The notes below the pieces were generated by a model, which made no database searches, was not told where the DNA came from, and saw only the letters and a list, made by a program, of their open reading frames with translations. A stretch of 37,908 nt of DNA, taken from the NCBI GenBank assembly GCA_004212975.1, contig SHBF01000007.1:1-37908 (forward strand). The letters are read 5' to 3'. The translations under genes were made by a program, and so were the position numbers. Below, piece by piece: positions 3,669 through 36,919 of this stretch. The stretch comes from SAR86 cluster bacterium. GTDB lineage: Bacteria; Pseudomonadota; Gammaproteobacteria; Magnimaribacterales; D2472. Numbering within the stretch: position 1 is the stretch's first letter; each line of letters starts with the position of its first letter.

Positions 3669-3674
3669 ATTACT

Positions 3675-3680
3675 ATCATA
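3675..3680 (-). promoter_or_regulatory. -10 box of tyrS, predicted leaderless
   Basis: TATGAT (5/6 match to TATAAT) on the minus strand ends six bases before the tyrS ATG, so transcription should begin at or next to the start codon. No convincing -35 and no Shine-Dalgarno sequence are visible. Confidence 0.45.
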
Positions 3681-3711
3681 GTATTTTTGGAAGATTATTA
3701 GAATCACAAAG

Positions 3712-3739
3712 TTGCTACTTAGTGCTTAAACATTAAAAT
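3712..3739 (+). promoter_or_regulatory. putA promoter, predicted leaderless
   Basis: TTGCTA (3712-3717) and TAAAAT (3734-3739) are spaced by 16 bases. The -10 ends seven bases before the putA ATG at 3747, which puts the expected transcription start on the start codon. Confidence 0.55.
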
Positions 3740-3746
3740 AGTTGCT

Positions 3747-6700
3747 ATGCTTGAGGCAAAAAATAAATTTATTTGTGAAGAAAAGCTTTTATTAAGTTTG
3801 TCGGATGAAACTAAGTTCTTAGAAGATAAAGAGATATCTAAAAATGCTCAAAAAATAATTGAGTTATGTAGAAAAAACAAGGTGGATAGAACTAAGCTTG
3901 ATGCATTTTTAAATGAGTATGGCCTGGATAACAAAGAAGGTGTTGCTTTAATGTGTCTTGCTGAATCTGTGTTAAGAATTCCTGACAAAAAAACAAGAGA
4001 TCTTATTATTTCTGAAAAATTATCTGAAGGAAAATGGATAGATCATTTAAATCAAGCTAATAACATCTTTGTAAACGCATCCACATGGGGATTGCTGCTT
4101 GCTGGAAAAATTGTACAAACTCCCTCAAAGTGGTCAGAAAATCCAAATAACTTTTTATCAGAACTTGTATCAAAATCTGGTGAGATGCCAATAAGAAATG
4201 CTGTACTTGCGGCCATGCAAATTCTTAGCCAAGAATTTGTAATTGGAAGAAATTTTAAAGACATCAATAAAATGTCTGGCTTAGAAAAAGATGTATTTTC
4301 TTTTGATATGCTTGGTGAAGCAGCAAGAACTCCGCAACAAGCAGATGATTATTTTGAATCATATAAAAGCGCTATAGATGAAGTTGGAAAAATTAATACT
4401 GCAAGAAATTTGTCTAATGGAGTATCAATAAAAATCTCAGCACTTCATCCAAGATATGAAATGAGAAAAATTAATCAAATAGAATCTGAATTATTACCAA
4501 AATTAAAAGAACTAGTTAATTATGCTCAATCAAAAGATGTTGAAATAACGATTGATGCGGAAGAACAAGATAGGCTTTCTTTAAGTCTACATATTATTGA
4601 AAAACTTGCATATGAAAAAAATATCAGAGACTGGCCAGAGTTTGGAATTGCACTTCAGGCGTATGGAAAAAGATCATTTGATGTCATTCGTTGGTTAAAT
4701 GGAATTTTAGATAAAAGAGATGGTATGCATCTTAGATTAGTTAAAGGAGCATACTGGGATTATGAAATTAAACATGCTCAGGTTTCAGGCTATGAAGGAT
4801 ATCCAGTCTTCTCAAAAAAATCACTTACCGACATTGCATATCTTGCTTGTGCAAAAGAAATATTCAAAAACAAAAAAATATTTCCAAAATTTGCCACGCA
4901 TAATGCACATACTATCTCTTCAATTCATCATATTGGAAAAGATTGTAATTATGAATTTCAAAGATTATATGGAATGGGTGAACTTTTGTATAAAAGTGCA
5001 TCTAAAGTTCTGGGAATTAAAAATAATCCCTCCGTTTATGCTCCGATTGGAAGCTATAAGGATTTATTACCCTATTTAGTAAGAAGATTGCTTGAGAATG
5101 GGGCAAATAGCTCATTCATAAATAGGCTGCTAGATCCTGATACTAATTCTAAATGGTTAGCTGAAAATCCATATATAAGAGTTAAAAGTGAAAAAAAAGA
5201 AATTCCATTACCAAATCAAATATTTATTAATAGACAAAATTCATCTGGTATGGACATATCAGAGAGTGAGAACTTAGAAAATCTAAAGAATAGACTCATC
5301 GATTTTGATGATAAATTAATTGATGCCAAATCAATTTACGAAGGAAGAGAAGAAGATAATAAAAATGTTGAAAAAATATTCTCAATTTCATCTAAAAAAG
5401 AAATTGGAACAGTAGTTTTTGATAATCCTAAAAACATAAAACAGTCGCTTACCAAAAGTTTAAAAACAACTTGGTCAAACACAAGCCCTAATGAAAGATC
5501 AGAGATTCTAAATAAAATTGCTAACAATATAGAAGAAGAACCTTACGAGTTAATATATTTTCTTATTAATGAAGCTGGCAAAACTATTCAGAATGCAATC
5601 GATGAAATTAGAGAAGCTGTAGACTTTTTGAGGTATTACTCAAATCAAATTCTTAAAATATCTGATGCTAGCGATCTTGAAGGACCAACTGGTGAAGAAA
5701 ATTTAATTACATACACATCAAAAGGAAGATTCTTGTGTATAAGTCCATGGAACTTTCCTGTTGCAATACTTATAGGTCAGATCTCTGCTGCTCTTGCATG
5801 CGGAAACAAAGTCATTGTAAAACCGTCTGAACATACCTCAATACTTGGATATCTAGTTGTAAAAAAATTTCATGAGCTTGGTATACCAAAAGATGCTTTG
5901 GAATTAATACTTGGTGATGGAAGTTATGGTGAAACATTGACAAAAATTACCCCACTGCATGGAGTAGCTTTTACAGGCTCATTGAAAACTGCAAAAAGTA
6001 TTCAAGCTAATCTTTTAGAGAGTCAAAAACAAATAGTTCCATTAATCGCTGAAACAGGTGGAATTAATGCAATGATTGTTGATTCAAGTGCATTATTAGA
6101 ACAAGTAACAGATGATGTTATAAGGTCTGCATTTGATAGTGCTGGACAAAGGTGCTCAGCATTAAGAGTACTTTGTATACAAGAAGAAATTTATGATGAT
6201 CTAGTTACTATGATTAAAGGTAACATTTCAACTCAAGCTATAGGTGATCCAAATAATTTTGATATAGATATAGGGCCGATAATAAATAATAAAGCGTTAG
6301 AAAATTTAAATAATTACATAACAAAATGTAAACAAAAAGGAATGGAGATATTTCAGTTTGAAGGCAAAGAATCAAATACGCATATCAATCCAACTATAAT
6401 CAATATTAATAGCATTTCTGATATAGAAGATGAGCAATTTGGGCCAATTCTTCATATTCTTAAATATAAATCTAATGAGATTGATCAATTGATAGCTGAA
6501 ATAAATGATAGTGGTTATGGATTAACGATGGGTATTCATACCAGGATAGAATCAAGAGCAGATTATTTTGGCTCAATGTCTAACGTTGGCAATATATACA
6601 TAAATAGGGATATGGTTGGCGCAGTTGTAGGCTCTCAACCTTTTGGAGGAGTTGGATTATCTGGGAGTGGTTTTAAAGCAGGTGGACCAAACTATCTTTT

Positions 6701-6788
6701 ACAATTCCTAAACGAAAAAGTGGTATCAAAAAATTCTGTTGCTTTTGGTGGGAATACTGAATTACTAAATCTTCAAGAAGACATATGA
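3747..6788 (+). CDS. putA: Bifunctional proline dehydrogenase / P5C dehydrogenase (PutA)
   Basis: Oxidises proline to glutamate in two steps. Residues about 180-460 are the FAD-dependent proline dehydrogenase barrel, with GVSIKISALHPRYE, DAEEQDR, RLVKGAYWDYEIK and ENGANSSFINR. Residues about 550-995 are the NAD-dependent aldehyde dehydrogenase: PWNFPVAI, FTGS, the base Glu in AETGG (Glu769) and the nucleophile Cys803 in SAGQRCSALR. At 1013 residues it lacks the N-terminal ribbon-helix-helix DNA-binding domain and the C-terminal extension of E. coli PutA (about 1320), so it should be a short, non-regulatory form. Its stop overlaps the peptidase start as ATGA. No proline transporter gene is nearby. 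Confidence 0.97.
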   Translation: MLEAKNKFICEEKLLLSLSDETKFLEDKEISKNAQKIIELCRKNKVDRTKLDAFLNEYGLDNKEGVALMCLAESVLRIPDKKTRDLIISEKLSEGKWIDHLNQANNIFVNASTWGLLLAGKIVQTPSKWSENPNNFLSELVSKSGEMPIRNAVLAAMQILSQEFVIGRNFKDINKMSGLEKDVFSFDMLGEAARTPQQADDYFESYKSAIDEVGKINTARNLSNGVSIKISALHPRYEMRKINQIESELLPKLKELVNYAQSKDVEITIDAEEQDRLSLSLHIIEKLAYEKNIRDWPEFGIALQAYGKRSFDVIRWLNGILDKRDGMHLRLVKGAYWDYEIKHAQVSGYEGYPVFSKKSLTDIAYLACAKEIFKNKKIFPKFATHNAHTISSIHHIGKDCNYEFQRLYGMGELLYKSASKVLGIKNNPSVYAPIGSYKDLLPYLVRRLLENGANSSFINRLLDPDTNSKWLAENPYIRVKSEKKEIPLPNQIFINRQNSSGMDISESENLENLKNRLIDFDDKLIDAKSIYEGREEDNKNVEKIFSISSKKEIGTVVFDNPKNIKQSLTKSLKTTWSNTSPNERSEILNKIANNIEEEPYELIYFLINEAGKTIQNAIDEIREAVDFLRYYSNQILKISDASDLEGPTGEENLITYTSKGRFLCISPWNFPVAILIGQISAALACGNKVIVKPSEHTSILGYLVVKKFHELGIPKDALELILGDGSYGETLTKITPLHGVAFTGSLKTAKSIQANLLESQKQIVPLIAETGGINAMIVDSSALLEQVTDDVIRSAFDSAGQRCSALRVLCIQEEIYDDLVTMIKGNISTQAIGDPNNFDIDIGPIINNKALENLNNYITKCKQKGMEIFQFEGKESNTHINPTIININSISDIEDEQFGPILHILKYKSNEIDQLIAEINDSGYGLTMGIHTRIESRADYFGSMSNVGNIYINRDMVGAVVGSQPFGGVGLSGSGFKAGGPNYLLQFLNEKVVSKNSVAFGGNTELLNLQEDI

Positions 6789-8029
6789 TTGGATTTAAAA
6801 AAACTCCAATCAGGCTTGTATTGATAATATTTTTAATATCTGTTGTCTCAATAATCCTTATTTATGTTGATTCCCTTGATAATGAACCATTAGCTATTGA
6901 AGAAATTACAATTTCAAGAGATCTTAGTGAAGGTCTAACGCCTATCAAGAGCAAGCAGATTCATACAGTAAGAAAGGGAGATAGCCTTTCTGTAATATTT
7001 GAAGACAAACAAGTCCCATTAAATACAGCCTACAAAATTTTTGATTTTGACAAAAATAATCTTTTATCAAGCATTATTCCAGGCGACATTATGGAATTTA
7101 ATTACATGGGTAATGATTTACTGAGTATAGAAATAATTAAGGATGACGTTAACTCAATACTTATTAAAACTGAAGATGAGATATCCATTATGAATATTAA
7201 AAAAGAAGCACAAACTATTACATCTTTTGGATTTGGTGAGATAAGAGATTCATTCTATAAAAGTGCAAAAGATGTAGGTATTCCTGATAGCATAATTATG
7301 GATTTTGCGTATATCTTTGGATGGGACATAGACTTTATCTTTGATGTGAGAAAGGGTGACAAATTTTCAGTGATCTATGAAACTGAATTTTCAGAGGGTG
7401 AAAAAATTTCAAGTGGAGATATTGTTTTTGCAGAGTTTACAAATAGAGAAAAAAAGTACATTGCTCAAAGGTTTTTTGACGATGTTCAAGGTAAGCAGTA
7501 TTTTAACGAAAATGGAGAAAACGTTAAGAAAGCTTTTCTCAGAGCTCCTCTAGATTTTGCTTATATCAGCTCTCATTTTAATACTAATAGGATGCATCCA
7601 ATTCTGCATAAAATAAAAGCTCATAACGGTGTCGACTATGCTGCTAAAAGAAATACTCCGGTAAAAGCATCTGGAGATGGCGTAATCTCTTTCATAGGAA
7701 GACAAAGCGGATATGGAAGAACTGTTGAGATAAAACATGGTGGAAATATTAAAACTCTTTATGCTCATCTTGAAAGATTTAACACAAAATTAAAAGTTGG
7801 AAGTAAAGTAAAACAAGGAGAAATAATTGCCTTTGTTGGTGATTCTGGTCAAGCTACTGGACCTCACCTTCACTTTGAGTTTTGGCAAGGAGAAATAAGA
7901 TCAGATCCAGTTAAAGTAAAACTTCCCTCTGCAAAGCCAGTAAATAATGCACAAAGAAATGAATTTGAAGATTTATTGGCATTAAATTTAAACAAACTAA
8001 ATGAGTATAATCTTCCAAAGTATGAATAA
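6785..8029 (+). CDS. mepM: Membrane-anchored M23 peptidoglycan DD-endopeptidase (MepM-like)
   Basis: A murein hydrolase with an N-terminal membrane anchor (about residues 10-28), a LysM/OapA-like domain (HTVRKGDSLSVIFEDKQVP, about 60-105), a central helical/strand region, and a C-terminal M23 (LytM) domain (about 250-385). All zinc and catalytic residues are visible: His280 and Asp284 in HNGVD, His328 in YAHL, and His361/His363 in HLHF. It should cut peptide cross-links in the periplasm to allow wall growth. Position before anmK matches the gammaproteobacterial tyrS-peptidase-anmK-erpA cluster. The start overlaps the putA stop by four bases. The exact orthology to MepM is inferred from architecture and context. 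Confidence 0.88.
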   Translation: MIGFKKTPIRLVLIIFLISVVSIILIYVDSLDNEPLAIEEITISRDLSEGLTPIKSKQIHTVRKGDSLSVIFEDKQVPLNTAYKIFDFDKNNLLSSIIPGDIMEFNYMGNDLLSIEIIKDDVNSILIKTEDEISIMNIKKEAQTITSFGFGEIRDSFYKSAKDVGIPDSIIMDFAYIFGWDIDFIFDVRKGDKFSVIYETEFSEGEKISSGDIVFAEFTNREKKYIAQRFFDDVQGKQYFNENGENVKKAFLRAPLDFAYISSHFNTNRMHPILHKIKAHNGVDYAAKRNTPVKASGDGVISFIGRQSGYGRTVEIKHGGNIKTLYAHLERFNTKLKVGSKVKQGEIIAFVGDSGQATGPHLHFEFWQGEIRSDPVKVKLPSAKPVNNAQRNEFEDLLALNLNKLNEYNLPKYE

Positions 8030-9041
8030 TTATTTTATTGGTATCATGACAGGAACAAGTGCTGACGCACTTGACGGATGCATTGTCTCTTTTGATGAAG
8101 GTTTTAAATTTGTCGAGTCAGCATCGATTTCACTTGATGACGATTATAAAAAAAACTATGAAGCATGCATAAAGGCAGGATATAAAACATCAAGCGAATC
8201 AAATGTGCTTGCTGAAATAGAACAAACTCTTAATAGACAAACTGTAAAACTTATAAAAACTTTAATTTATAAATCAAATATAGATGTTTCTAAAATCTCT
8301 TTAATAGGATTTTCAGGACAAACAGTTTTTCATACCAATGAAAGGAGCTATCAAATCGGTGATCCTTTGTTTATAGCAAAAGAAACTAAAATTAATGTTT
8401 GTTCAGATTTTAGGAACTTTGATATAAAGCATGGAGGTATTGGTGCCCCTTTAATACCAGCATTTCACAATTATCTCTTTTCTGAAGATAACAAAAGTAA
8501 AATCATTTTCAATATTGGTGGAATTGCAAATGGTACATTTTTAAATGACGGTGAAATTGTATTAGCTTCTGATGTCGGGCCCGGAAATTGTTTGATTGAT
8601 TTCGTTATGGCTGAAAGATTTAATAAGCCCTTTGATGATAAAGGCGATGAGGCCTCAAGAGGTGAAATCAATCAGGAATTGTTAAATGAGTTGAGAAGCT
8701 CTTGTAATGACATGCAATACCCAAGAGCTGATGATAAGCAAAGTTATTACGAATTAATAAACGATTCCTTTTATGAAATACAATCAAACTCAGTTCTTAA
8801 AACTTTGACTGAATTTACAGCAGAAAAAATCGTGGAATTTTATGAATTTTGTAAAGAGCCTGATGAAGTAATTATTCATGGTGGAGGAACAAAGAATTTA
8901 TTTTTGATGAATTTGATTAAAAGTAAAATTTCTGGAACTTTAAAAACCACCGAAGACAAAATACCATCTAAGTTTGTTGAAGCAGCTGGTTTTGCTTATC
9001 TTGCTTGTCTAAATAAAGGTGAGGTGTTTTTGGCTAAATAG
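8022..9041 (+). CDS. anmK: Anhydro-N-acetylmuramic acid kinase
   Basis: Phosphorylates and hydrolyses 1,6-anhydroMurNAc during cell-wall recycling. Family motifs are the N-terminal phosphate loop GIMTGTSADALD, GFSGQTVFH, the catalytic SDFRNFDIKHGGIGAPLIP block, NIGGIAN, DVGPGNCLID and HGGGTKN. Length (339) is slightly below E. coli AnmK. The first loop has Ala in place of the usual Gly after the conserved Asp (SADALD against SLDGVD). An ATG at 8001 would add seven residues inside the peptidase gene. The ATG at 8022 gives the usual short N-terminus and overlaps the upstream stop by eight bases. The 3' end overlaps the convergent erpA by eight bases. Confidence 0.93.
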   Translation: MNNYFIGIMTGTSADALDGCIVSFDEGFKFVESASISLDDDYKKNYEACIKAGYKTSSESNVLAEIEQTLNRQTVKLIKTLIYKSNIDVSKISLIGFSGQTVFHTNERSYQIGDPLFIAKETKINVCSDFRNFDIKHGGIGAPLIPAFHNYLFSEDNKSKIIFNIGGIANGTFLNDGEIVLASDVGPGNCLIDFVMAERFNKPFDDKGDEASRGEINQELLNELRSSCNDMQYPRADDKQSYYELINDSFYEIQSNSVLKTLTEFTAEKIVEFYEFCKEPDEVIIHGGGTKNLFLMNLIKSKISGTLKTTEDKIPSKFVEAAGFAYLACLNKGEVFLAK

Positions 9042-9378
9042 TAAATGACTCACCGCATCCACATGTCGTTTTTGCGTTTGGATTATTAATTACAAACTTA
9101 GAGCCAGATAAGTCTTCTACAAAGTCTAGTGTTGAACCAAACAGATATGGATATGACATTGAATCAAGTAAAACTGAAAAATTGTCAAATTCAATTACAT
9201 CATCATCAAAAGCTACATCAGAGTCAAATTTAAAACCGTATTGAAATCCTGAGCAGCCTCCACCAGTAACATATACCCTGAATCTTGTTCCTAGATCTTC
9301 ATTAGTGCTCATTACATTATTTATTCTGGCTAAAGCACTATCAGTAAGAGATAAAGATTTATTTTCAGTTTTTTCCAT
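9034..9378 (-). CDS. erpA: A-type iron-sulfur carrier protein ErpA
   Basis: Carries and delivers Fe-S clusters to apoproteins. The HesB/IscA fold is clear at 114 residues, with the three ligand cysteines Cys42 (GGGCSGFQYGF), Cys106 and Cys108 (TTCGCGESF). ErpA rather than IscA or SufA is favoured by the position beside anmK and the absence of other isc/suf genes. In some A-type carriers aspartate replaces Cys residues, but here all three are kept. It is transcribed divergently from hemG; no clear -10 is positioned at its start codon. Confidence 0.92.
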   Translation of the reverse strand: MEKTENKSLSLTDSALARINNVMSTNEDLGTRFRVYVTGGGCSGFQYGFKFDSDVAFDDDVIEFDNFSVLLDSMSYPYLFGSTLDFVEDLSGSKFVINNPNAKTTCGCGESFTI

Positions 9379-9450
9379 AACAATTAATTAAAATTGAATA
9401 ACAGTATAAAATATAATTATGCTTAAATGCTTTTTTTTCAAGGTATTCAA

Positions 9451-9456
9451 TATAAT
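9451..9456 (+). promoter_or_regulatory. -10 box of hemG, predicted leaderless
   Basis: A perfect TATAAT ends seven bases before the hemG ATG (9464), which places the expected transcript start at the start codon. No good -35 is present at 16-18 bases, and there is no Shine-Dalgarno sequence. Confidence 0.5.
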
Positions 9457-9463
9457 TTAATTA

Positions 9464-9976
9464 ATGAAAAAATCCCTAATTACCTATTCGACCGTTGATG
9501 GTCAAACTAAAGAGATTTGTGAAAAAATTTCAGAATTATCAAATAATTCTTTTATTGATATTCTTCCGATAAATAAAGTAGGTAGTATAGATGCCTACGA
9601 AAAAGTAGTAATTGGCGCAAGTATTAGGTATGGCAATTATAGAAAAGATGTTTTTCAATTTATTAATAAAAATATTGAGAAATTAGAGCTTAAAGAAAAT
9701 GCATTTTTTTCAGTAAATGTTGTTGCGAGAAAGAAAGAAAAAAACTCTCCTGAGACAAATCCGTATGTAATTAAATTTTTAGATAAGATAGATTGGGTTC
9801 CAAAAAAAATTGGGGTATTTGCAGGAAAAATAGATTACCCTAGTTACAAATTTTTTGATAAATATGCAATAAAATTTATTATGTGGATCACCAATGGTCC
9901 AACAGATACATCTAAAACCTTTGAATTCACCGATTGGAAAAAGGTTGAAGAGTTTACAAAAGATTTAAATTTATGA
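9464..9976 (+). CDS. hemG: Menaquinone/ubiquinone-dependent protoporphyrinogen IX oxidase (HemG)
   Basis: A flavodoxin-fold enzyme that oxidises protoporphyrinogen IX to protoporphyrin IX and passes electrons to the respiratory quinone. It keeps the FMN-binding start STVDGQTKEIC, the strongly conserved VVIGASIRYGNY, SVNVVARKKEK and AGKIDYPSYKFFDKYAIKFIMW (the HemG-specific insertion), and a final TDTSK-TDW block. Length 170 is close to E. coli HemG (181). It overlaps hemL by four bases (ATGA), so two heme-pathway enzymes are translated together. This identifies the organism as a HemG user rather than a HemY or HemJ user. Confidence 0.93.
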   Translation: MKKSLITYSTVDGQTKEICEKISELSNNSFIDILPINKVGSIDAYEKVVIGASIRYGNYRKDVFQFINKNIEKLELKENAFFSVNVVARKKEKNSPETNPYVIKFLDKIDWVPKKIGVFAGKIDYPSYKFFDKYAIKFIMWITNGPTDTSKTFEFTDWKKVEEFTKDLNL

Positions 9977-16769: not shown

Positions 16770-17092
16770 AGAGATTGATTCCGGTTTTAATTCTATTTGG
16801 CTGCAATATTAATCAGAATTATGACAAATCATTGTTGCCTGATGCAGATCCTTCATTATTGAGCAAAGTTAATTCAAGAGGGTTGATAACATGCATGCAA
16901 ATACCTGTTCCTCAGCCGCCAATACCAATAAACAAAGATCATAAAATACCGCAAACAGAAGTTTACGATTCTAATGATTGTATAGACAGTGAAATGGCTA
17001 AAGTAGAATCAAAAAAAATTAATAGTGAAAGGAAAGAAAAGAAAGAATTCAATCTTGAGATTGATCTAAAAGATCAAAATGATAAAGAATAA
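16766..17092 (+). CDS. Small putative lipoprotein, unknown function
   Basis: A 108-residue protein with a short basic-hydrophobic start [13 protein letters not shown]. Cys13 after LFG is a near-match to a lipobox, so it may be a lipoprotein. The middle is proline-rich ([16 protein letters not shown]) and contains two more cysteines. The last about 35 residues are almost all Lys, Glu, Asp and Asn, and probably disordered. I recognise no family. It is ATGA-coupled to acs, and its last 19 bases overlap the convergent metallo-beta-lactamase gene, which may explain the odd charged tail. Confidence 0.6.
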
Positions 17093-17877
17093 TTGCCCTT
17101 ATTCTTATTTAATCTTCCCTCTTCTTCAAGTTTAATTAAATGCGCTAACAAGCTCATCTTAGCAATGGGATGAAGCATTTCAGGCACATCATCATATACT
17201 GATAGCAACAGTTCATCGATATTTGAATTATTTTTATTTTCAATGCATCTAATAACCTTAGACTCTCTTGAAAGCCTATGTCGAATAATTGACTGAATTG
17301 TTTTTGAAGGTTCCTCCATATAATTACCATGCCCAGGAGCAAAGTAATCAATGTCATAATTTTCGAGCAATTTTAAAGAGTCGATATATTCAGTCATGTT
17401 TCCATCGGGAGGAGCTATTACAACAGTTGATCCATCCATAATATGGTCGCCTGTTAATAGACATTTAATATCCTTCATATAAAAACATAAATGATTGGAT
17501 GCATGACCAGGAGTATGAATAGTCTCAAGGGAATATTCGTTTGTTGAAATAGTATCACCATGATTTAAGACGGTGTCAGGAACAAATGTTTCGTCTTCCC
17601 ATTCAGAATCTCTATCAACTAATCGCCCAAACATAGGAATATTTAATTTTTTTGAAATTGGCAATGCTGCCGGTGAGTGATCCTTATGAGTATGTGTAAC
17701 CAAAATTCTTTTAATCTTATCTCCGCCTAGAAACAAAATTTTCTCTATATGTTCAGCATCATTTGGGCCAGGATCAATTAAGGTAATATCATCACTTCCA
17801 ATTAAATATGTATTTGTTCCATTACCAGTAAATACTCCGCCATTGTTTGCAGTAATTTTCTTTATTAGCTTATGCAT
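17074..17877 (-). CDS. Metallo-beta-lactamase fold hydrolase (LACTB2-like)
   Basis: A 267-residue di-metal hydrolase. The HxHxDH motif is THTHKDHSPAALP (His62, His64, Asp66, His67), with His125 in HTPGHASNH, Asp144 in TGDH and His183 in PGHG, so the full metal set is present. The THTHxDHSPAALP wording and the C-terminal winged-helix-like tail resemble the LACTB2 group, in which human LACTB2 is an endoribonuclease; other members are thioesterase-like or unknown. It directly follows the Nudix gene with a one-base overlap (TAATG), so they form one transcript. Exact substrate unknown. Confidence 0.85.
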   Translation of the reverse strand: MHKLIKKITANNGGVFTGNGTNTYLIGSDDITLIDPGPNDAEHIEKILFLGGDKIKRILVTHTHKDHSPAALPISKKLNIPMFGRLVDRDSEWEDETFVPDTVLNHGDTISTNEYSLETIHTPGHASNHLCFYMKDIKCLLTGDHIMDGSTVVIAPPDGNMTEYIDSLKLLENYDIDYFAPGHGNYMEEPSKTIQSIIRHRLSRESKVIRCIENKNNSNIDELLLSVYDDVPEMLHPIAKMSLLAHLIKLEEEGRLNKNKGNYSLSF

Positions 17878-18668: not shown

Positions 18669-18693
18669 ATATTTAATTGATATGGCTTAGAAT
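18664..18693 (+). promoter_or_regulatory. Promoter of the alpha/beta hydrolase gene, predicted leaderless
   Basis: TAGAAT (18688-18693) ends seven bases before the ATG at 18701. A possible -35 is TTCATA (18664-18669, spacer 18), which overlaps the start codon of the divergent Nudix gene. Confidence 0.45.
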
Positions 18694-18700: not shown

Positions 18701-19591
18701 ATGAGAATCAGTGACAATCTAATTAAGGATATAGCAAATGCTCCTGAATGGTTTTTTGAAGCCATTAAAGTAGAGCCAAAAGAATGCGAAATTGAAAATC
18801 CAAAAGGAAATCTCTCTTATTCAAAATGGGATTGTGATTCAGAAAGTAAAAACCTGCTTATATTTATCCATGGAACTGGAGCGCATAAAAAATGGTGGTA
18901 TCCAATAGCTCCACATTTTACAGAAAATACTAATGTGATCGCAGTTGATCTTCCAGGCATGGGTGATTCGGGTTTTAGAGATAAATACAGCATCAAAGAT
19001 TTTGGTCAATGTATTATTTCAATTATTGAAAAAGAAAAATCAGCTAAGCTCATTGATAATGTCTTCATTGTTGGACATTCTCTAGGTGGTCAAGTTGCAG
19101 CATATGTCGCCTCTGAAAAAAAAGAACTTGTTTCTAGCTTAATAATGATCGATACCTTTATAAGGCCACCCGACTGGGATCCTTCGCAACATGAGGGCGG
19201 TCCTCTTAGAATGATCAAATATTATCCAGATAAAGCTACTATTTTAAAAAGGTTTAGGCTTTTACCTGAACAGGAATGTCTAAATGATTGGTTTGTAAGA
19301 TATATAGCAGAACATTCTGTTCGAAAAACTGATGAAGGATGGCGATGGAAGTTTGATGATTCTATGTTTAATAGCTTGGAAAGATTGTTTGGTTATCAAT
19401 TTTCATTTGGATGCCCTGCTCTATTTATTCATGGTGCAAATAGTTTACTCATGTTAGGTAATATCCTTGGCAACATAAAAAATATGTATTCAAATATCAT
19501 GGAATTTGAAGAAATTCCTGGTGCAGCCCATCATGTCCCTCTCGATAAACCCTTGGAAATAGTTGATATAATTAAAAATCGTTTATTTTAA
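18701..19591 (+). CDS. Alpha/beta-fold hydrolase
   Basis: A 296-residue hydrolase of the alpha/beta fold. The oxyanion segment FIHGTGAHKKWW, the DLPGMGDSG loop, the nucleophile elbow GHSLGGQ (Ser127) and the C-terminal histidine in PGAAHHVPLD are visible. The acid residue is not certain. No signal peptide is seen, so it is probably cytoplasmic. The substrate cannot be told; esterase and other C-C or C-X hydrolase activities are all compatible. A TTG at 18677 would add eight residues, but the ATG at 18701 is preferred on promoter spacing. It is followed after two bases by the paraoxonase-like gene, suggesting linked roles. Confidence 0.83.
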   Translation: MRISDNLIKDIANAPEWFFEAIKVEPKECEIENPKGNLSYSKWDCDSESKNLLIFIHGTGAHKKWWYPIAPHFTENTNVIAVDLPGMGDSGFRDKYSIKDFGQCIISIIEKEKSAKLIDNVFIVGHSLGGQVAAYVASEKKELVSSLIMIDTFIRPPDWDPSQHEGGPLRMIKYYPDKATILKRFRLLPEQECLNDWFVRYIAEHSVRKTDEGWRWKFDDSMFNSLERLFGYQFSFGCPALFIHGANSLLMLGNILGNIKNMYSNIMEFEEIPGAAHHVPLDKPLEIVDIIKNRLF

Positions 19592-25483: not shown

Positions 25484-25489
25484 ATTGTA
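25484..25489 (-). promoter_or_regulatory. -10 box of priA, predicted leaderless
   Basis: TACAAT on the minus strand (5/6 match) ends six bases before the priA ATG. No strong -35 or Shine-Dalgarno sequence is visible. Confidence 0.4.
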
Positions 25490-25502: not shown

Positions 25503-25530
25503 TTGATATAGTTCTCATCCTAAATATATT
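25503..25530 (+). promoter_or_regulatory. Promoter of the L31 gene, predicted leaderless
   Basis: TTGATA (25503-25508, 5/6) and TATATT (25525-25530, 5/6) are spaced by 16 bases. The -10 ends five bases before the ATG at 25536, leaving essentially no leader for a ribosomal protein mRNA. Confidence 0.55.
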
Positions 25531-26739: not shown

Positions 26740-26745
26740 ATTATA
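26740..26745 (-). promoter_or_regulatory. -10 box of sixA-dut
   Basis: Perfect TATAAT on the minus strand, ending nine bases before the sixA ATG; the predicted leader is about two or three bases. It sits beside the divergent L28 promoter. Confidence 0.45.
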
Positions 26746-26748: not shown

Positions 26749-26777
26749 TTGATATGTCGGCTTCTGTTCTATAAAAT
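26749..26777 (+). promoter_or_regulatory. Promoter of the L28 gene
   Basis: TTGATA (26749-26754) and TAAAAT (26772-26777) with a 17-base spacer make the best sigma-70 match in the window. The -10 ends nine bases before the ATG at 26787, so the leader would be about three bases. Confidence 0.65.
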
Positions 26778-26786
26778 CGCGTTTCT

Positions 26787-30533: not shown

Positions 30534-30539
30534 GTGTGT

Positions 30540-30567
30540 ATTTTACTTATTTAAAGTAACTTTCCAA
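30540..30567 (-). promoter_or_regulatory. pepP promoter, predicted leaderless
   Basis: On the minus strand TTGGAA (30567-30562) and TAAAAT (30545-30540) have a 16-base spacer. ACACAC then separates the -10 from ATG. The 15 bases from -10 to ATG differ by one base from those before the glutathione peroxidase gene. Confidence 0.55.
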
Positions 30568-30589
30568 TTCATTAAAGTAGAATTAAACT
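30561..30589 (+). promoter_or_regulatory. Promoter of the coiled-coil/zapA unit
   Basis: TTTCCA (30561-30566) and TAAACT (30584-30589) with a 17-base spacer; the -10 ends six bases before the ATG at 30596. The -35 overlaps the -35 of divergent pepP. A TATAAA at 30589-30594 is too close to the ATG to serve as its -10. Confidence 0.35.
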
Positions 30590-30595
30590 ATAAAA

Positions 30596-30790: not shown

Positions 30791-31049
30791 AGTTGAAACC
30801 GTAGCTCTAAGAATATTTGGAAGAGATTTAACCATCGCATGTCCACCTAAAGAAAAAGATAATTTAATAAAAGCGGCTGCCTTATTAAATGAGGAGTTAG
30901 ATAATATAAGTGACAAAAATAACGCTCTGATAATTGCAGGATTAACTCTTTCTAATAAGCTCCTAAATGATGATTCTAAATCTACTAAAAAAGAAAGTGT
31001 TGATTACTCTAAACTTATTAAAAAAATAGAGAAAGTACTTCAAAAATAA
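30783..31049 (+). CDS. zapA: Cell division protein ZapA
   Basis: Binds and cross-links FtsZ filaments at midcell. The N-terminal VALRIFGRDLTIACPPKEKD matches the conserved ZapA segment VxIxGrxyxxxcpxxe, followed by a helix with LLNEELDNISDKNNALIIAGL and a short coiled-coil end. At 88 residues it is a little shorter than E. coli ZapA (109), losing part of the C-terminal coiled coil. AGAAGG (30771-30776), six bases before the ATG, is a proper Shine-Dalgarno sequence within the preceding gene. The 6S RNA follows about 40 bases later, the standard order. Confidence 0.93.
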   Translation: MSKVETVALRIFGRDLTIACPPKEKDNLIKAAALLNEELDNISDKNNALIIAGLTLSNKLLNDDSKSTKKESVDYSKLIKKIEKVLQK

Positions 31050-31052
31050 TCT

Positions 31053-31080
31053 TTAACTTAAATCCCATCTAAACTATACT
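31053..31080 (+). promoter_or_regulatory. Promoter of the 6S RNA
   Basis: TTAACT (31053-31058) and TATACT (31075-31080), spacer 16 bases, placed directly after zapA. Transcription is expected to start near 31087, matching the start of the conserved RNA. Confidence 0.5.
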
Positions 31081-31086
31081 CTTATA

Positions 31087-31266
31087 ACATTCTGGTTCAT
31101 TAGCCAATGTGTTAATAAATTTGAACCGATACTATTAAATAGGTGATTTTCCACTGTCATTGTTGAGCATTACCATTAAGGGAAGCCTGATTTGACAAGA
31201 TGTTCACCACCTGAACTTTCGGTTCAGGTATAGCACATAGCGGTGATCTGGTTTGCTAGCCTCTGC
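31087..31266 (+). ncRNA. ssrS: 6S RNA
   Basis: The roughly 180-base interval between zapA and fau matches E. coli 6S RNA in blocks. GAACCGATACTATT corresponds to GAGCCGAUAUUU, a TTGTTGAGCAT block to GGUUGGUGAGCAU, and GGAAGCCTGA with ATGTTCACCACCTGAAC, the TTCGGTTCAGG hairpin and ATAGCGGTGATC to the 3' half. The GAAC/GTTC-type apical hairpin (CCTGAAC-TTTC-GGTTCAGG) is perfect, and ATGTG near the 5' end can pair with CACAT near the 3' end. 6S RNA mimics an open promoter and sequesters the housekeeping RNA polymerase in stationary phase. Ends are approximate. The zapA-6S-fau order is conserved in gammaproteobacteria. Confidence 0.92.
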
Positions 31267-31273
31267 AATTATT

Positions 31274-31843
31274 ATGGTGAAAAATAAAATTAGAAAATCA
31301 CTACTTAAGCAGGGGCAACTTTTTTGTCAGAATGATATCGAAGAGTTAAATTCTCAGATTCAAAAAAATGTATTTAAAGAAATAGATATCGAATCTTCTA
31401 AGAATACCCTTCTCTATTTTCAATATAAAAACGAAATACCTACAAATCTAATAATCGATGAGTTATTAAAATACTCCAATAATATATATATGCCTCGAAT
31501 AGTTTCTGAAAATGAATTGAAGTTCAATTTATTCAAAGAGGGTGAGACCTTAAAAAAAAATAAATATGGTATAGATGAACTAATGAATGAAGACTATATT
31601 AATCCTATAGTTCTTAACACTATGTTCATACCTTTTGTTGGAATAGATAAGAATGGGCATAGGCTAGGATATGGTGGTGGTTTTTTTGATAAAACACTTG
31701 AACAATTAAAGTCTCAAAAAGGCAGGCCACTTTTTGTTGGACTGGGATATGACTATCAAATCTTAGAAGAACGTTTTGGCGAGAGTCATGATATTAAATA
31801 TGATCTAGTTATTACAGAATCGCGTGTACTTTCATATGACTGA
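31274..31843 (+). CDS. fau: 5-formyltetrahydrofolate cyclo-ligase
   Basis: Converts 5-formyl-THF to 5,10-methenyl-THF using ATP, returning the storage form to one-carbon metabolism. The 189-residue protein has the basic N-terminal ATP-contact helix (KNKIRKSLLKQG), YMPRIV, and the diagnostic FIPFVGIDKNGHRLGYGGGFFD block (the GYGGGFFD part at 132-139). An in-frame TTG at 31253 lies inside the 6S RNA, so the ATG at 31274 is chosen. It starts only about eight bases after the 6S RNA and lacks a Shine-Dalgarno sequence, so it is probably read from the 6S promoter, as for E. coli ygfA. Confidence 0.93.
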   Translation: MVKNKIRKSLLKQGQLFCQNDIEELNSQIQKNVFKEIDIESSKNTLLYFQYKNEIPTNLIIDELLKYSNNIYMPRIVSENELKFNLFKEGETLKKNKYGIDELMNEDYINPIVLNTMFIPFVGIDKNGHRLGYGGGFFDKTLEQLKSQKGRPLFVGLGYDYQILEERFGESHDIKYDLVITESRVLSYD

Positions 31844-31865
31844 GCTATAAAATGTCCGCCGAAAC

Positions 31866-34148
31866 ATGAGAACAATCGCTAAATATATTCTAATTTTCTG
31901 GATTCCACTTATATCTGGTAAGACAATTATTCTTGATGGGAATTTAGATGAACCAGAGTGGGAAAGTGCATTCGTAATAGATGAGTATTATGAAGTTGTC
32001 CCTTTTACTCTCAATCCAGCAAAAGTAAAAACAACTGCAAAAATATTTTCAAATGAAGAGGGAATATATGTGGGTTTTATCAATTATCAAGAAAATTCTT
32101 CAATGATTTCAAATAAATCTTTACGAGATGAATGGAATGCGAATGCTGAACAAAACGGTGTTGGTATTGATTTTGACAGTGATGGAGCAAAAGCTTATAT
32201 GTTCATTGTTACCCTAGCAAATATTCAAAGAGATGGCATTAGACCTTTGGGTGGTTTTCCCAAATTTGATTGGGATGGGGATTGGGAAGCACAAACAAAA
32301 AAAAATGATGGTTTCTGGGTCTCAGAATTTTTAATACCTTGGAATGTTGTTCTGATGAAGCCTGAGACAAATAATAAAAGAAAAATTAATGTTACAACTT
32401 ATAGGTATCTAGCAAAAGAAAAGTTATGGCTAAATGATACAAAGACAAGTGGGTTTAGAACAAATTTTCTTTCAAATCTAAGAACAATAGAGGTAAACAA
32501 TTTTTCTAAAAGAAAGATCAATTTTTTTCCATTTATTGCAAAAACTCATAACTCAGTCACAAGCTTTAACGAAGATAAGATTGGAGCAGAAATATTTTTA
32601 AATACTGGCACAGGGAAACAAATTAATCTTACAATCAATCCAGACTTTGGTCAGGCAGAGAGTGACGAAGTTATTGTTAATTTTTCTGCACAAGAAACTT
32701 TCTATTCTGAAAAACGCGCTTTTTTTAATGAAAATCAATCTTTGTTTGATTTAAATCATTACGATAGATATAGAATTATTAATACTAGAAGAATTGGTGC
32801 AAGAAGTAGCTATTTGTGTTCATCATCATTAAATGAAGATGACTGCGTTGATTCAAGAAAAAATTACACCGATATTGACTACGCTCTTAGATATACTCAA
32901 AAAAATAATAATACAGATTTTGGAGTTTTTGTTGCTAAAGAGTCGGATGAAAGATATACAAAAGGAAAAGATTTTTACGCTATAAGATCAAAAAAGAAAA
33001 TAGATAACAGAACAATTGGTTACTTTTTAACACATGTTGAAAATAATTTTCTAAATGAAAGTGCTACAGTTAATGTAATAGATTTTGCGAATGTAAAATC
33101 TAACAAGCTAACTACCTATAACGATTTAATTTCATCTGAAAGAGAGGGTGAGTCTGGATTTGGCTTTAGATCACAATTTAATTATAAGCCAACACAGTTA
33201 TCGAGTAGATCAGGTAGTCTACTCTATTTTGATGATAGTCTAATGTTAAACGATTTTGGTTATCTCAGAAAAAATGATTGGTTTCACATAGGTCTAGGAT
33301 CTAATATCACATTAATTGACTTTAAAAAGCGTAAAGAAATTAAGGAGCTGGAACTAGGAATAGATTTTAATTACGACTCAGATACTTCAGGAAATTCAAA
33401 TCCATTTACTATTGGGCAAAAGAATGAATTTACTTTCCTAAATGCCTCAAAATTTCAGTTTACATGGGATTTAAAAACTTCTGGAAAAGATACAACTATT
33501 ACAAGAAAGAATATTGATTTTCCTTATGTAAAAAATACTGGAAGTTTCAGCTTTAACTTAGATTATGAATCACCGAGTTTTGGAATCTGGGAGTATGATT
33601 GGAGGATCGGATATGAGGATGCCGATAAATATGAGTCATTTGATTCCAACGGATATAAAAGAAGGTATGCAAAGATAGGTGGATCTTTTTATCCAGTGGA
33701 TGATTTTAAAGTAGGATTTTCAACGAGAATAAGAAACGAGAAAGAGTGGTTAAATTGGATAGAAAACAATGATCTTGCTGTTTATGATTTATCTCAAAAA
33801 ATTATTTCTATTAATATGAATTGGTATAGGGGTTCAAAGCATGAGATAAGACTAAAGAGTCAATTTGTAGCGTTACAAGCAAAAAATCCAAGAAGTTTAA
33901 TTGTTGATCAGAATGGTTACCTTAAAAACAATAATAAAGAAGTTAGTCCATTTTCTGAAGGAATTACATCATTCCAAGTAAGATATAAGTATGAGATTGC
34001 TCCTCTATCCTACATATATCTGGTATATACAAAAGGAGGAAGTGTCTTTGAAGATAATATAACTAGAGAGACTTCTAAAATCTTTAAAGATCCTTGGAAA
34101 GATCCAGACAATGAAATATTTTCTATTAAATTTAGGCTTAAATATTAA
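31866..34148 (+). CDS. DUF5916 outer-membrane protein with CBM9-like N-terminal domain
   Basis: A 760-residue exported protein. Residues 1-18 are a signal peptide; about 20-195 form a CBM9-like sandwich (IILDGNLDEPEWESA, YVGFINYQ, DWDGDWEAQT, FWVSEFLIPW). Then comes the DUF5916 signature INPDFGQAESDEVIVNFSA and ETFYSEKRAFF (about 255-290), followed by some 470 residues of alternating strands with many aromatics and a C-terminal Tyr, as expected of a beta-barrel inserted by the BAM machinery. The function of DUF5916 proteins is unknown; they are common in marine heterotrophs. A -10-like TAAAAT (31848-31853) lies 12 bases before the ATG. Confidence 0.86.
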   Translation: MRTIAKYILIFWIPLISGKTIILDGNLDEPEWESAFVIDEYYEVVPFTLNPAKVKTTAKIFSNEEGIYVGFINYQENSSMISNKSLRDEWNANAEQNGVGIDFDSDGAKAYMFIVTLANIQRDGIRPLGGFPKFDWDGDWEAQTKKNDGFWVSEFLIPWNVVLMKPETNNKRKINVTTYRYLAKEKLWLNDTKTSGFRTNFLSNLRTIEVNNFSKRKINFFPFIAKTHNSVTSFNEDKIGAEIFLNTGTGKQINLTINPDFGQAESDEVIVNFSAQETFYSEKRAFFNENQSLFDLNHYDRYRIINTRRIGARSSYLCSSSLNEDDCVDSRKNYTDIDYALRYTQKNNNTDFGVFVAKESDERYTKGKDFYAIRSKKKIDNRTIGYFLTHVENNFLNESATVNVIDFANVKSNKLTTYNDLISSEREGESGFGFRSQFNYKPTQLSSRSGSLLYFDDSLMLNDFGYLRKNDWFHIGLGSNITLIDFKKRKEIKELELGIDFNYDSDTSGNSNPFTIGQKNEFTFLNASKFQFTWDLKTSGKDTTITRKNIDFPYVKNTGSFSFNLDYESPSFGIWEYDWRIGYEDADKYESFDSNGYKRRYAKIGGSFYPVDDFKVGFSTRIRNEKEWLNWIENNDLAVYDLSQKIISINMNWYRGSKHEIRLKSQFVALQAKNPRSLIVDQNGYLKNNNKEVSPFSEGITSFQVRYKYEIAPLSYIYLVYTKGGSVFEDNITRETSKIFKDPWKDPDNEIFSIKFRLKY

Positions 34149-34150
34149 AC

Positions 34151-35644
34151 TTACTTCAAGAAATCTAAATAAGCCTTATTATTGCTCTCTTCTTTAAAGG
34201 CTGTTCCACATTTATGTAAATGTTTTAAAAGTGCGGACTTGTTTTTGTGTGTATCTTCAATTCCTATAAGGATATTTCCATACGCAGATCCAATATTTCT
34301 ATAGTGGAATAGTGAAATATTCCAATGATTTCCAAAACTCTCTAAGAACTCTAATAATGCTCCTGGCTTTTCTGGAAATTCTCCGTTAAAAATTCTTTCA
34401 TTTTTTTCAGATATATTTGATTGGCCTCCTCTGCCGCCAACCATATGTCTTAAATGATCATTTGAAATTTCATTAGAGGTGTAATCACTAAATTTATATT
34501 TAAGTTTTTTTAGTTTTGCCTTCAACTTCTCAAAGCTATTTTCAGATTGAGTTCTTATTCCTACTAATACATACGCATCTTTATTATCTGACTTTCTATA
34601 ATTAAATTCGGTGACTGGTAATTTCCCAATAGCCTTTGCAAGCTTTAAAAAACTTCCTGGTTCTTCTGGAATTTTAATGCTGAGAATTTTTTCGCGGTTT
34701 TCTCCAATTTCAGATCTTTCAACAATAAATCCAAGTTTTTGAAAATTAACATTTGCACCTGAACTCACTGCAAGTAAATTCTTATTCTTCATTCTTTTTG
34801 AGTAACTTTTTAGACCTGCTAAAGCAACAGCTCCTGATGGCTCAGACAATACTCTGGTATCTTCAAAGATATCTTTTACAGCAGCGCAGACTTCATCAAT
34901 ATTTACAGTCATTACCTCATCAACGCATTCTTTGATGACATCAAGATTGTTTTTCCCTACTTGGGAAACAGCAACTCCGTCTGCAAATAATCCAACCCTT
35001 TTTAGATAAACTCTTTTATTTTGAATTAATGCTTCTGTAAGACAAGCCGAATCATTTACTTCAACACCAATTATTTTAATTTTCTTTTTATTTTGTCTTA
35101 TCCAAGCTGATATGCCAGCCAAAAGGCCTCCTCCGCCAACTGGGACGAAGACAGCATCGTAGTCAATTTCATCCTCAAGTATTTCCCGTCCTACTGTTCC
35201 TTGCCCTGCTATAGTAAATGGATCATCAAAAGGATGTACAAAGGTATATTTATGTTTTTTATTAATCTTATCTGCATGAGCGAGAGCATCTCCTAAATTT
35301 TCGCCATGCAAAATTATTTTTGCTCCAAGCCTTTTTACTGCATTTAATTTATTTTCTGGTGCAGTTACCGGCATCACAATAGTACATTTTATTTTTAACT
35401 TCCTGCAAGCTAAAGCTACACCTTGGGCATGATTTCCTGCTGATGCAGCTATTATTCCACGAGATTTTTTATCTTCAGATAAGTTAACAATTTTATTAAA
35501 GGCTCCTCTATTCTTAAAAGAAAAAATAGGCTGAAGATCTTCTCGTTTTAAATAAATTTCATTCCCCTCTTTCATTGAAAGATTTGTGGCATAGGTAGTA
35601 GGTGAATTTATTGAAACATCATATACAGATGCTTCATTAATCAT
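34151..35644 (-). CDS. ilvA: Biosynthetic threonine dehydratase
   Basis: Deaminates threonine to 2-oxobutanoate, the first step to isoleucine. It is a PLP fold-type II enzyme with Lys44 in SFKNRGAF, the SAGNHAQG loop, and the phosphate-binding GGGGLLAG (170-177), plus two C-terminal ACT-like domains (about 320-405 and 412-497) for isoleucine/valine control, so it is the biosynthetic form. The frame is open up to a TTG at 35701, which would add 19 low-complexity residues. The ATG at 35644 fits Pseudomonas-type N-termini best, though it loses the first few aligned residues, so the start is uncertain. Divergent rpiA is the normal neighbour. Confidence 0.93.
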   Translation of the reverse strand: MINEASVYDVSINSPTTYATNLSMKEGNEIYLKREDLQPIFSFKNRGAFNKIVNLSEDKKSRGIIAASAGNHAQGVALACRKLKIKCTIVMPVTAPENKLNAVKRLGAKIILHGENLGDALAHADKINKKHKYTFVHPFDDPFTIAGQGTVGREILEDEIDYDAVFVPVGGGGLLAGISAWIRQNKKKIKIIGVEVNDSACLTEALIQNKRVYLKRVGLFADGVAVSQVGKNNLDVIKECVDEVMTVNIDEVCAAVKDIFEDTRVLSEPSGAVALAGLKSYSKRMKNKNLLAVSSGANVNFQKLGFIVERSEIGENREKILSIKIPEEPGSFLKLAKAIGKLPVTEFNYRKSDNKDAYVLVGIRTQSENSFEKLKAKLKKLKYKFSDYTSNEISNDHLRHMVGGRGGQSNISEKNERIFNGEFPEKPGALLEFLESFGNHWNISLFHYRNIGSAYGNILIGIEDTHKNKSALLKHLHKCGTAFKEESNNKAYLDFLK

Positions 35645-35728
35645 TTTAAGATACTTTTTAGAGTTCCTATAATTACCTGTTTTTTTTATTTTAAGTCTCA
35701 ATTTAAATCACGTATTAAAATTTTCTTG

Positions 35729-35735
35729 TATTATA
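35729..35735. promoter_or_regulatory. Symmetric -10 element shared by rpiA and ilvA
   Basis: TATTATA reads as TATTAT on the plus strand (35729-35734), six bases before the rpiA ATG, and as TATAAT on the minus strand (35735-35730), pointing toward ilvA. This is the layout of a bidirectional promoter. No clear -35 is seen on either side. Confidence 0.45.
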
Positions 35736-35740
35736 ACTGT

Positions 35741-36379
35741 ATGAGCGCTGCAAAGATAAGTGTTGCAAAAAAAGCAATTGATTATATTGAAAAAAAACTA
35801 TCGATAGAGACTGTTCTGGGCATTGGTACTGGTTCAACAGTGAATTACTTTATTAATGAATTAGATGCATATAAAAATCTTTTTCGAGGAGCAGTATCAA
35901 GTTCGGAAGCATCTTCACAACTTCTAAGAGAAAAGAATATTGAGGTCTTTAGTTTAAATGATGTTAATCAAATAGACTTTTACATTGATGGAGCAGACGA
36001 GGTTTCACCAAATAACTTTCTAATCAAAGGTGGCGGTGGAGCGCATACAAGAGAAAAGATAGTAGCAGCAGCGGCACAAGAATTTATATGCATTGTTGAT
36101 AAAACAAAGATGGTTGATAAGCTTGGAGCCTTCCCTCTTCCAGTCGAAGTAATTCCAGAAGCAAGAAGTTTTGTTGCAAGAAAAATTGTAGCTTTAGGTG
36201 GTAAACCAATTTATAGAGAAAATTTTATTACTGATCAAGGAAATCATATTATTGACGTAGAAGAAATAGATATCAGTGAACCTGAAGCCTTAGAGATTTT
36301 ATTAAATAATATTCCGGGTGTCGTTGATAACGGAATCTTTGCTTTTAATAAACCTGAGCTTGTGTTGGTATCTGACTAG
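35741..36379 (+). CDS. rpiA: Ribose-5-phosphate isomerase A
   Basis: Interconverts ribose 5-phosphate and ribulose 5-phosphate in the pentose phosphate pathway. The 212-residue protein has GIGTGSTVNYF (phosphate loop, 27-37), YIDGADEV (81-88) and KGGGGAHTREKIVA (96-109), which hold the catalytic Asp, Lys and Glu residues. A TTG at 35726 would add five residues, but the ATG at 35741 matches the family start and the -10 spacing. It ends three bases from the convergent peroxidase gene. Confidence 0.96.
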   Translation: MSAAKISVAKKAIDYIEKKLSIETVLGIGTGSTVNYFINELDAYKNLFRGAVSSSEASSQLLREKNIEVFSLNDVNQIDFYIDGADEVSPNNFLIKGGGGAHTREKIVAAAAQEFICIVDKTKMVDKLGAFPLPVEVIPEARSFVARKIVALGGKPIYRENFITDQGNHIIDVEEIDISEPEALEILLNNIPGVVDNGIFAFNKPELVLVSD

Positions 36380-36382
36380 AGA

Positions 36383-36907
36383 TTATAAAAGTTCTTCTAT
36401 TTTAGATAGTAATTCTGGCGAATCAGGTTTTACCCTTGATCCAAATGTAGATACTACTTTACCGTCTCTAGAAATTAAATACTTATTGAAATTCCATGCA
36501 GGTGAGACACCACTCTGGGCTATCAATTTTTTGTATAAGGGATTAGCTTTGCTACCTCTTACTTTTGAAGTTGCAAACATTGGGAAATCTACCCCATATT
36601 CAGTGGAGCAAAACTCAGCAACATCTGCTTCATCTGAATACTCTTGCATGAAGTCTCTCGATGGAACTCCAAGAACAACAAAACCTTCGTTTTTGTAATC
36701 TTCATAAAGTTTTTGAAGAGAAGAATATTGATAGGTGTATCCGCATCTACTCGCAACATTTACAACTAAAACAACTTGATCTGTATATTCACATAAGTTG
36801 ACACTTTCACTTGAATCCAAAACTCTCATTTCGGTATCAAGCAAATCTGAACATGCTTCAGAATAGAAAGAAAATAATAAAATAAAAAGAGGTGCAATCT
36901 TTTTCAT
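36383..36907 (-). CDS. Exported cysteine-type glutathione peroxidase family protein
   Basis: A 174-residue thioredoxin-fold peroxidase. The peroxidatic Cys55 is in NVASRCGYT (no selenocysteine), and the WNFNKYLI motif near residue 135 supplies the Trp/Asn of the catalytic set. The middle motif, usually a GFPxNQFGxQE sequence, is GVPSRDFMQEY here, so the Gln position is altered or shifted. Residues 1-18 are a signal peptide; Cys19 in SEAC is a poor lipobox, so periplasmic or lipid-anchored are both possible. It likely removes peroxides using a thioredoxin-like or glutathione donor. Confidence 0.87.
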   Translation of the reverse strand: MKKIAPLFILLFSFYSEACSDLLDTEMRVLDSSESVNLCEYTDQVVLVVNVASRCGYTYQYSSLQKLYEDYKNEGFVVLGVPSRDFMQEYSDEADVAEFCSTEYGVDFPMFATSKVRGSKANPLYKKLIAQSGVSPAWNFNKYLISRDGKVVSTFGSRVKPDSPELLSKIEELL

Positions 36908-36913
36908 GTGTGT

Positions 36914-36919
36914 ATTCTA
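36914..36919 (-). promoter_or_regulatory. -10 box of the glutathione peroxidase gene, predicted leaderless
   Basis: TAGAAT on the minus strand is followed by ACACAC and the ATG, a six-base gap. This is nearly identical to the pepP start region. Confidence 0.45.

Follow-up and report, generated by a model that had tools for sequence, protein, structure and literature searches.

-10 boxes just before the start codon suggest leaderless or near-leaderless mRNAs for a large minority of SAR86 transcripts

The locus and its near-start boxes

The DNA analysed here is a stretch of 37,908 nucleotides (nt) from a SAR86 cluster bacterium (contig SHBF01000007.1), hereafter called the window, in which many genes that begin a transcript carry a hexamer resembling a -10 promoter box only a few bases before their start codon. 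The window has a GC content of 32%, and the host genome comprises 39 contigs and 850,626 bases at a completeness of 74.76%. Homologues of its PriA were found in genome contigs at 28 loci, 24 of them from SAR86 cluster bacteria, two from entries named Gammaproteobacteria bacterium and two from distant organisms (Faecalicoccus, Clostridia), with the closest match at 100% identity. Protein families identify, among others, tyrS, putA, hemG, hemL, dksA and pcnB, together with genes for an alpha/beta hydrolase, a deoxynucleoside kinase, RpiA, glutathione peroxidase (gpx), a NUDIX protein, L31 and a member of the histidine phosphatase family, the last being the gene previously called sixA. The alpha/beta hydrolase gene starts at 18701 (Pfam Abhydrolase_1, 2.2e-20), which fits the hydrolase gene described earlier with its box seven bases from the start codon. 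The gene at 17074-17877 was rejected as a candidate for it; it neighbours the hydrolase gene and encodes a metallo-beta-lactamase-fold protein.

A preliminary description of the window had listed thirteen transcript-first genes with a -10 hexamer ending 5-9 bases before the start codon (this distance is called the gap below), and all thirteen hexamers were indeed present at the positions claimed. We aligned the upstream DNA of SAR86 relatives from the start codon and removed near-identical copies before counting. Relatives were excluded if their protein identity was below 50%, if no start codon stood at the aligned place or if their pairwise identity over 40 nt exceeded 90%; those that remained are the diverged relatives. 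A box was counted as kept when a -10 box occurred at the same gap ±1. The boxes and associated elements are as follows (kept counts refer to diverged relatives):

3675..3680, - strand: tyrS -10 box TATGAT, gap 6 to ATG 3668; kept in 3/3, visible in 8/8 same-genus relatives inspected
3734..3739, + strand: putA -10 box TAAAAT, gap 7 to ATG 3747; kept in 6/6, bases between box and ATG variable
18688..18693, + strand: alpha/beta hydrolase -10 box TAGAAT, gap 7 to ATG 18701, in a 32-base divergent spacer; kept in 8/8
25484..25489, - strand: priA -10 box TACAAT, gap 6 to ATG 25477; 4/7 by the box rule, CAAT in 10/10 relatives inspected
25507..25512, + strand: L31 conserved -10-like TATAGT, gap 23; kept in 5/5
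26740..26745, - strand: sixA-like gene -10 box TATAAT, gap 9 to ATG 26730; kept in 5/6
26749..26754, + strand: L28 -35-like TTGATA, spacer 17; TTGATA in 15/18 relatives inspected
26772..26777, + strand: L28 (rpmB) -10 box TAAAAT, gap 9; kept in 8/8
30540..30545, - strand: pepP -10 box TAAAAT, gap 6 to ATG 30533; kept in 7/7
30561..30566, + strand: coiled-coil gene -35-like TTTCCA, spacer 17; in 10/10 relatives inspected
30584..30589, + strand: coiled-coil gene (before zapA) -10 box TAAACT, gap 6; kept in 5/5
35729..35734, + strand: rpiA -10 box TATTAT, gap 6 to ATG 35741 (not TTG 35726); kept in 3/3
36914..36919, - strand: gpx candidate -10 box TAGAAT, gap 6; kept in 0/1

Nine of the thirteen near-start boxes are therefore conserved in diverged SAR86 relatives at gap 6-9, whereas those of hemG, the deoxynucleoside kinase gene and L31 are not; gpx, with a single relative to compare, is undecided. 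The nine amount to about half of the 18 transcript-first genes of the window (16 ATG-started genes plus L31 and gpx). Retention of the box despite changes in the bases that separate it from the ATG is clearest in pepP and the alpha/beta hydrolase gene. In pepP these bases differ in most relatives, yet TAAAAT (or TAGAAT) persists, a pattern expected from selection on a promoter. Automatic footprinting, for which 12 of the 13 first-gene groups came from the window and protein identity limits ranged over 45-97%, detected a conserved box at gap 4-9 in 8/13 first-gene groups and in 0/9 operon-internal groups. All but one of the nine footprinted boxes lie within one mismatch of TATAAT, and six of them score above 0.5 in the free expectation-maximization (EM) model described below.

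Some further features were noted at these sites. In each of the divergent spacers sixA/L28 (26731-26786, 56 bases) and pepP/coiled-coil (30534-30595, 62 bases), two promoters that face in opposite directions interleave. In most relatives the L28 -10 box is directly followed by a GC-rich CGCG (26778-26781 in the window), which we take to resemble a stringent-type discriminator. The priA-L31 spacer of SAR86 relatives contains a conserved block, TATAGTTCTCATCCTAA (+ strand, small variants; window 25507-25523), that may represent a promoter plus a regulator site, and L31 itself looks leadered, as judged from its conserved box at gap 23. A 6S RNA (Rfam RF00013, 54 bits) lies at 31086-31258 on the + strand, flanked by zapA and a gene for 5-formyltetrahydrofolate cyclo-ligase.

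Genome-wide position of the -10 box

Genes were called in stretches of 11 SAR86 genomes, i.e. the genome of the window and ten more, which represent four families (f1 to f4). Gammaproteobacterial outgroups, E. coli K-12 and two Deinococcus plasmids served as comparison sets. Start codons were chosen from coding statistics alone, and a gene counted as first if its upstream neighbour was divergent or, on the same strand, at least 50 bases away. The genome-wide counts leave out genes that start with a codon other than ATG, that have an ATG in frame upstream or another within the next 8 codons, or for which no upstream neighbour was called, and likewise genes separated from a same-strand neighbour by 20-49 bases; in the E. 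coli and Deinococcus sets every ATG start was included. Two window genes, L31 (missed by the gene caller) and gpx (no neighbour), stand outside these counts.

We counted genes that have a hexamer with at most one mismatch from TATAAT at gap 5-9 and compared the number with that obtained after dinucleotide shuffling of the same 28 final upstream bases. This is a conservative null that retains the box's own letters, and it was adopted because EM priors are self-reinforcing. In the genome of the window, 31 of 94 first genes carried such a hexamer against 15.0 after shuffling, and none of 100 shuffles reached this count. The same was true, with 0/200 shuffles as high, for first genes of families f1 (68/279 against 42.7), f3 (38/122 against 16.2) and f4 (33/112 against 18.5; 53 against 28.2 for TANNNT). 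Operon-internal genes showed no excess in f1 (34/311 against 31.8) or f2 (24/230 against 22.3). No significant excess was found in outgroup G074, a gammaproteobacterium with 29% GC and a 1.1-Mb genome (15/58 against 11.9, 31/200 shuffles as high), and none in the other gammaproteobacterial outgroups (6/46 against 7.6), while E. coli fell below its null (2/166 against 5.5). The Deinococcus plasmids gave an excess of TANNNT (7/39 against 1.5).

An EM model in which the -10 matrix was generic and the gap distribution free was run with eight simulated nulls per set. The share of first genes at gap 5-9 was 18.5% in f1 (51.5/279; nulls 0.3-3.4%), 11.1% in f2 (20.1/182; nulls 1.0-5.3%), 25.4% in f3 (30.9/122; nulls 0.3-4.4%) and 35.5% in f4 (39.8/112; nulls 0-2.9%). 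The corresponding values were 5.5% in G074 (3.2/58; nulls 1.8-5.9%), 4.2% in the other outgroups (1.3/30; nulls 0-8.4%), 0.2% in E. coli (0.3/166; nulls 0.1-0.9%) and 10.3% in the Deinococcus plasmids (4.0/39; nulls 0-2.2%). For operon-internal genes they were 2.6% in f1, 0.1% in f2, 2.1% in f3, 5.1% in f4 and 5.9% in G074. In f1 and f3 the gap peaks at 6, in f4 at 7. The gap distribution of f1 is bimodal: it dips at 13-18 and rises again to a broad hump at 20-34 (35%). This second hump is the larger one, so first genes that look leadered are more numerous than those that look leaderless.

The preliminary description had held that most transcripts of the window look leaderless, and had expected a gap peak that stands out against shuffled and operon-internal controls. 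The peak exists in the genome of the window and in f1, f3 and f4, next to the larger hump. A majority is not reached, neither by EM across the four families nor by the hexamer count in the window's own genome (31 of 94 first genes). We infer from the EM and shuffle figures that roughly 15-40% of first genes in this genome are leaderless or near-leaderless.

Three other ways of estimating the share were given up. EM with one pooled SAR86 prior was rejected in favour of free-prior EM and local shuffles: on upstream regions simulated for the 11 SAR86 genomes the same fixed prior gave 13.4-18.9%, so that its shares are largely prior-driven. A strict position weight matrix threshold was not sensitive enough, and raw operon-internal counts against a coding background were biased by stop codons and composition.

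Ortholog pairs were drawn from the sampled genomes within families, with diverged upstreams and protein identity of at least 40%. The 46 first-gene pairs had 12 shared boxes at gap 5-9 against 3.9 expected from other positions, and the 63 operon-internal pairs had 3 against 2.6 expected; the 11 first-gene pairs that shared a box all lay outside the window. Words resembling a -35 box were about twofold enriched upstream of near boxes (21/128) and far boxes (36/250) relative to uncalled TANNNT (44/562; p 0.006 and 0.005), and were found upstream of 10/104 operon-internal TANNNT. Shine-Dalgarno (SD) words preceded 2/80 near-box genes against 64/181 far-box genes. The lack of SD sequences, cited previously in favour of leaderless starts, is visible as a contrast, but it arises mostly because the hexamer takes up the SD window, and it was rejected as an independent argument. 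The anti-SD end of 16S rRNA was intact in the single stretch examined (L093, from an f2 genome). Nor was an association of near boxes with short divergent spacers adopted: it reached p 0.03 in f1, was not significant in f2 and f3, and ran in the opposite direction in f4.

Spread within SAR86 and ribosomal protein S1

Smaller SAR86 genomes show the stronger signal. The near-box excess over local shuffles falls as estimated genome size rises (Spearman -0.81, p 0.003; 11 genomes of four families, rounded sizes), and per genome it ranges from 20.8% (G026) down to none (G024, G031). Small genome size alone is insufficient, because the small and AT-rich G074 has no significant excess. SAR86 has been divided into four families, of which Suzuki and CHAB-I-7 share an origin, and an isolate, HIMB1674, has been described (PMC11582366, in the portion available). 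Judging by genome numbers and genome sizes, families f1 and f4 would correspond to Suzuki and CHAB-I-7, respectively. HIMB1674 is a member of the Magnimaribacteraceae, a family that may match f2, where the signal is weak, or f3.

Inspection of ribosomal protein S1, as the preliminary description had proposed, revealed a difference between the families. Matches to the rpsA model were scored in SAR86 genomes G001-G040 and in 34 non-SAR86 gammaproteobacterial genomes. In f1, the match stops at model position 428-433 of 516 in 19/25 genomes, with an open reading frame of mostly 435 aa. In f4, it stops at 429-430 in 2/5 genomes, and two more reach 463-464 only via stop codons. Six f1 genomes and one genome each of f4 and f2 gave nothing but weak matches to other S1-domain frames; in the single-contig f4 genome G033 (93% complete), there was no clear rpsA match, only weak other S1-domain frames. 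The match extends to 515-516 in 10/11 genomes of f2 and f3, and to 511-516 in 34/34 non-SAR86 gammaproteobacteria (two in pieces at contig ends). S1 of f1 and f4 therefore ends about one S1 domain early, i.e. without the sixth domain (L115, 18700-20000); in G024 it ends after apparent domain 5, and a tRNA-Leu follows.

According to the available parts of the respective reports, E. coli without S1 domain 6 is viable, grows more slowly and is cold-sensitive (PMC3858243), and S1 has five domains in Deinococcus-Thermus and mostly six in proteobacteria (PMC6705787). S1 length matches the leaderless share imperfectly, and we rejected S1 shortening as the direct cause: f3 keeps all six domains yet has a strong peak, and G024 has a short S1 yet no peak. 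It is conceivable, although we consider it unlikely, that genome-reducing SAR86 are shifting from SD-led to leaderless initiation, most deeply in the smallest genomes, and that in f1 and f4 this was accompanied by loss of S1 domain 6, leaving the five-domain S1 reported for the leaderless-rich Deinococcus-Thermus.

Interpretation and alternatives

Very probably, SAR86 has sigma-70-type promoters whose -10 box, in a large minority of cases, ends 6-9 bases before the AUG and would thus give rise to leaderless or near-leaderless mRNAs. The usual distance from the -10 box to +1 puts the start on or next to the A of the ATG for gap 6-7. From this spacing, boxes 6-9 bases from the AUG would direct transcription to start on its A or at most about three bases upstream. 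Start-codon recognition at the 5' end of the mRNA is an initiation mode described in E. coli, and by analogy such mRNAs would be translated in this way instead of by SD pairing. Most other first genes would have leaders of about 13-28 bases, roughly one third of them with an SD-like word.

Several observations weigh against this interpretation. In the window, the hemG near box is kept in only 1/9 diverged relatives, and is nevertheless favoured by EM (0.61), i.e. wrongly. The near box of the deoxynucleoside kinase gene is kept in 4/13 and sits in non-conserved DNA right after the pcnB stop codon, and the L31 near box (TATATT, gap 5) is kept in 2/5. Local shuffles show no excess in f2 (28/182 against 24.8, 53/200 as high), so the EM excess of this family is not upheld, and none in the f1 genome G024 (6/62 against 8.2). 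Operon-internal genes exceed the shuffles in f4 (24/153 against 15.9, 6/200 as high) and weakly in f3 (16/139 against 10.9, 13/200 as high), in neither case for TANNNT. The SD contrast is weak because controls with a hexamer in the SD window are also SD-poor: near-box genes with 3/128 SD words differ from operon-internal controls with 10/103 (p 0.02) and not from leadered ones with 2/32 (p 0.26). Nor is the preference of near-box genes for ATG (79/80 against 170/181 of far-box genes) significant (p 0.11).

That the boxes are mere chance TATAAT-like words in AT-rich upstream DNA is highly improbable. Local shuffles alone yield matches in about 15% of f1 first genes (42.7/279), and chance may account for individual genes such as hemG, the deoxynucleoside kinase gene and L31; as a full explanation it is refuted by the shuffles of f1, f3 and f4, all 200 of which stayed below the actual count in each family, by the AT-rich outgroup without a significant excess and by the conservation of the boxes at fixed spacing. 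We give just as little credence to wrongly chosen start codons, by which the real starts would lie further downstream and the mRNAs would be leadered. For several genes there is indeed a choice of candidate starts, and only coding statistics decided among them. However, the SixA-like protein aligns to its Pfam family from residue 4, equal to profile position 1, and the SAR86 and outgroup counts were limited to ATG codons that lack an in-frame ATG upstream or within 8 codons downstream. The N-termini of L28 and PriA, compared with those of E. coli, fit their families. A more serious alternative, although one we hold to be the less likely, is that these mRNAs are not truly leaderless and instead have very short SD-less leaders (1-8 nt), translated like leaderless mRNAs or like A-rich leaders. 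Gap 9, as in sixA and L28, predicts leaders of 2-3 nt, and in the FadJ-like gene the box lies at gap 12-21 depending on the relative; the peak at gap 6 or 7, on the other hand, puts +1 on or beside the A of the ATG.

Comparison with known leaderless systems

Leaderless genes are already known in bacteria and make up a few percent of genes in some gammaproteobacteria, a class in which this mode of initiation has been regarded as rare. Zheng et al. 2011 took a -10-like signal that precedes the start codon by about 10 bp as the mark of a leaderless gene, and, in the portion of their survey available, such TA-led signals were found in 15/239 gammaproteobacterial genomes, mostly of Xanthomonadales and Legionellales, at a mean of 4.5% of genes (3.0-5.7; PMC3160421). 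The SAR86 genes resemble these TA-led genes in having the signal just before the start codon. Over all genes, the EM shares are 9.1% in f1, 4.9% in f2, 10.2% in f3 and 14.9% in f4, as compared with 3.0-5.7% in that survey, with the caveat that the methods differ and that the SAR86 shares come without a null. In the same portion of the survey, SAR86 is not named.

The signal is also the one known from Actinobacteria and Deinococcus-Thermus, and the Deinococcus plasmids were positive by the present method. Unlike these groups, SAR86 is AT-rich, retains SD-led genes and has first genes that are mostly leadered, as it appears. In enterobacteria the same type of mRNA has been mapped for a handful of genes per genome, namely 18 in E. 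coli, 10 in K. pneumoniae and 16 plus 17 near-leaderless in S. Typhimurium (PMC3415461 and PMC3293720, in the sections accessible), whereas in SAR86 it is predicted for a substantial share of first genes. No earlier report of leaderless starts in SAR86 was found in the open-access library searched, where some papers were judged by title, and the words 'leaderless', 'transcript' and 'translation' are absent from the main text of the SAR86 families paper (PMC11582366). As far as this literature search reaches, SAR86 would be a new and comparatively strong case.

If about a quarter of transcript-first genes are indeed leaderless, rules derived from E. coli for predicting starts and ribosome-binding sites would mislead in SAR86, a common ocean bacterium of which a cultured isolate, HIMB1674, exists. 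Strength of the signal, size of the genome and length of S1 all vary among the four SAR86 families, so that comparing these families could then be a natural way to study why and by what route bacteria shift between SD-led and leaderless translation.

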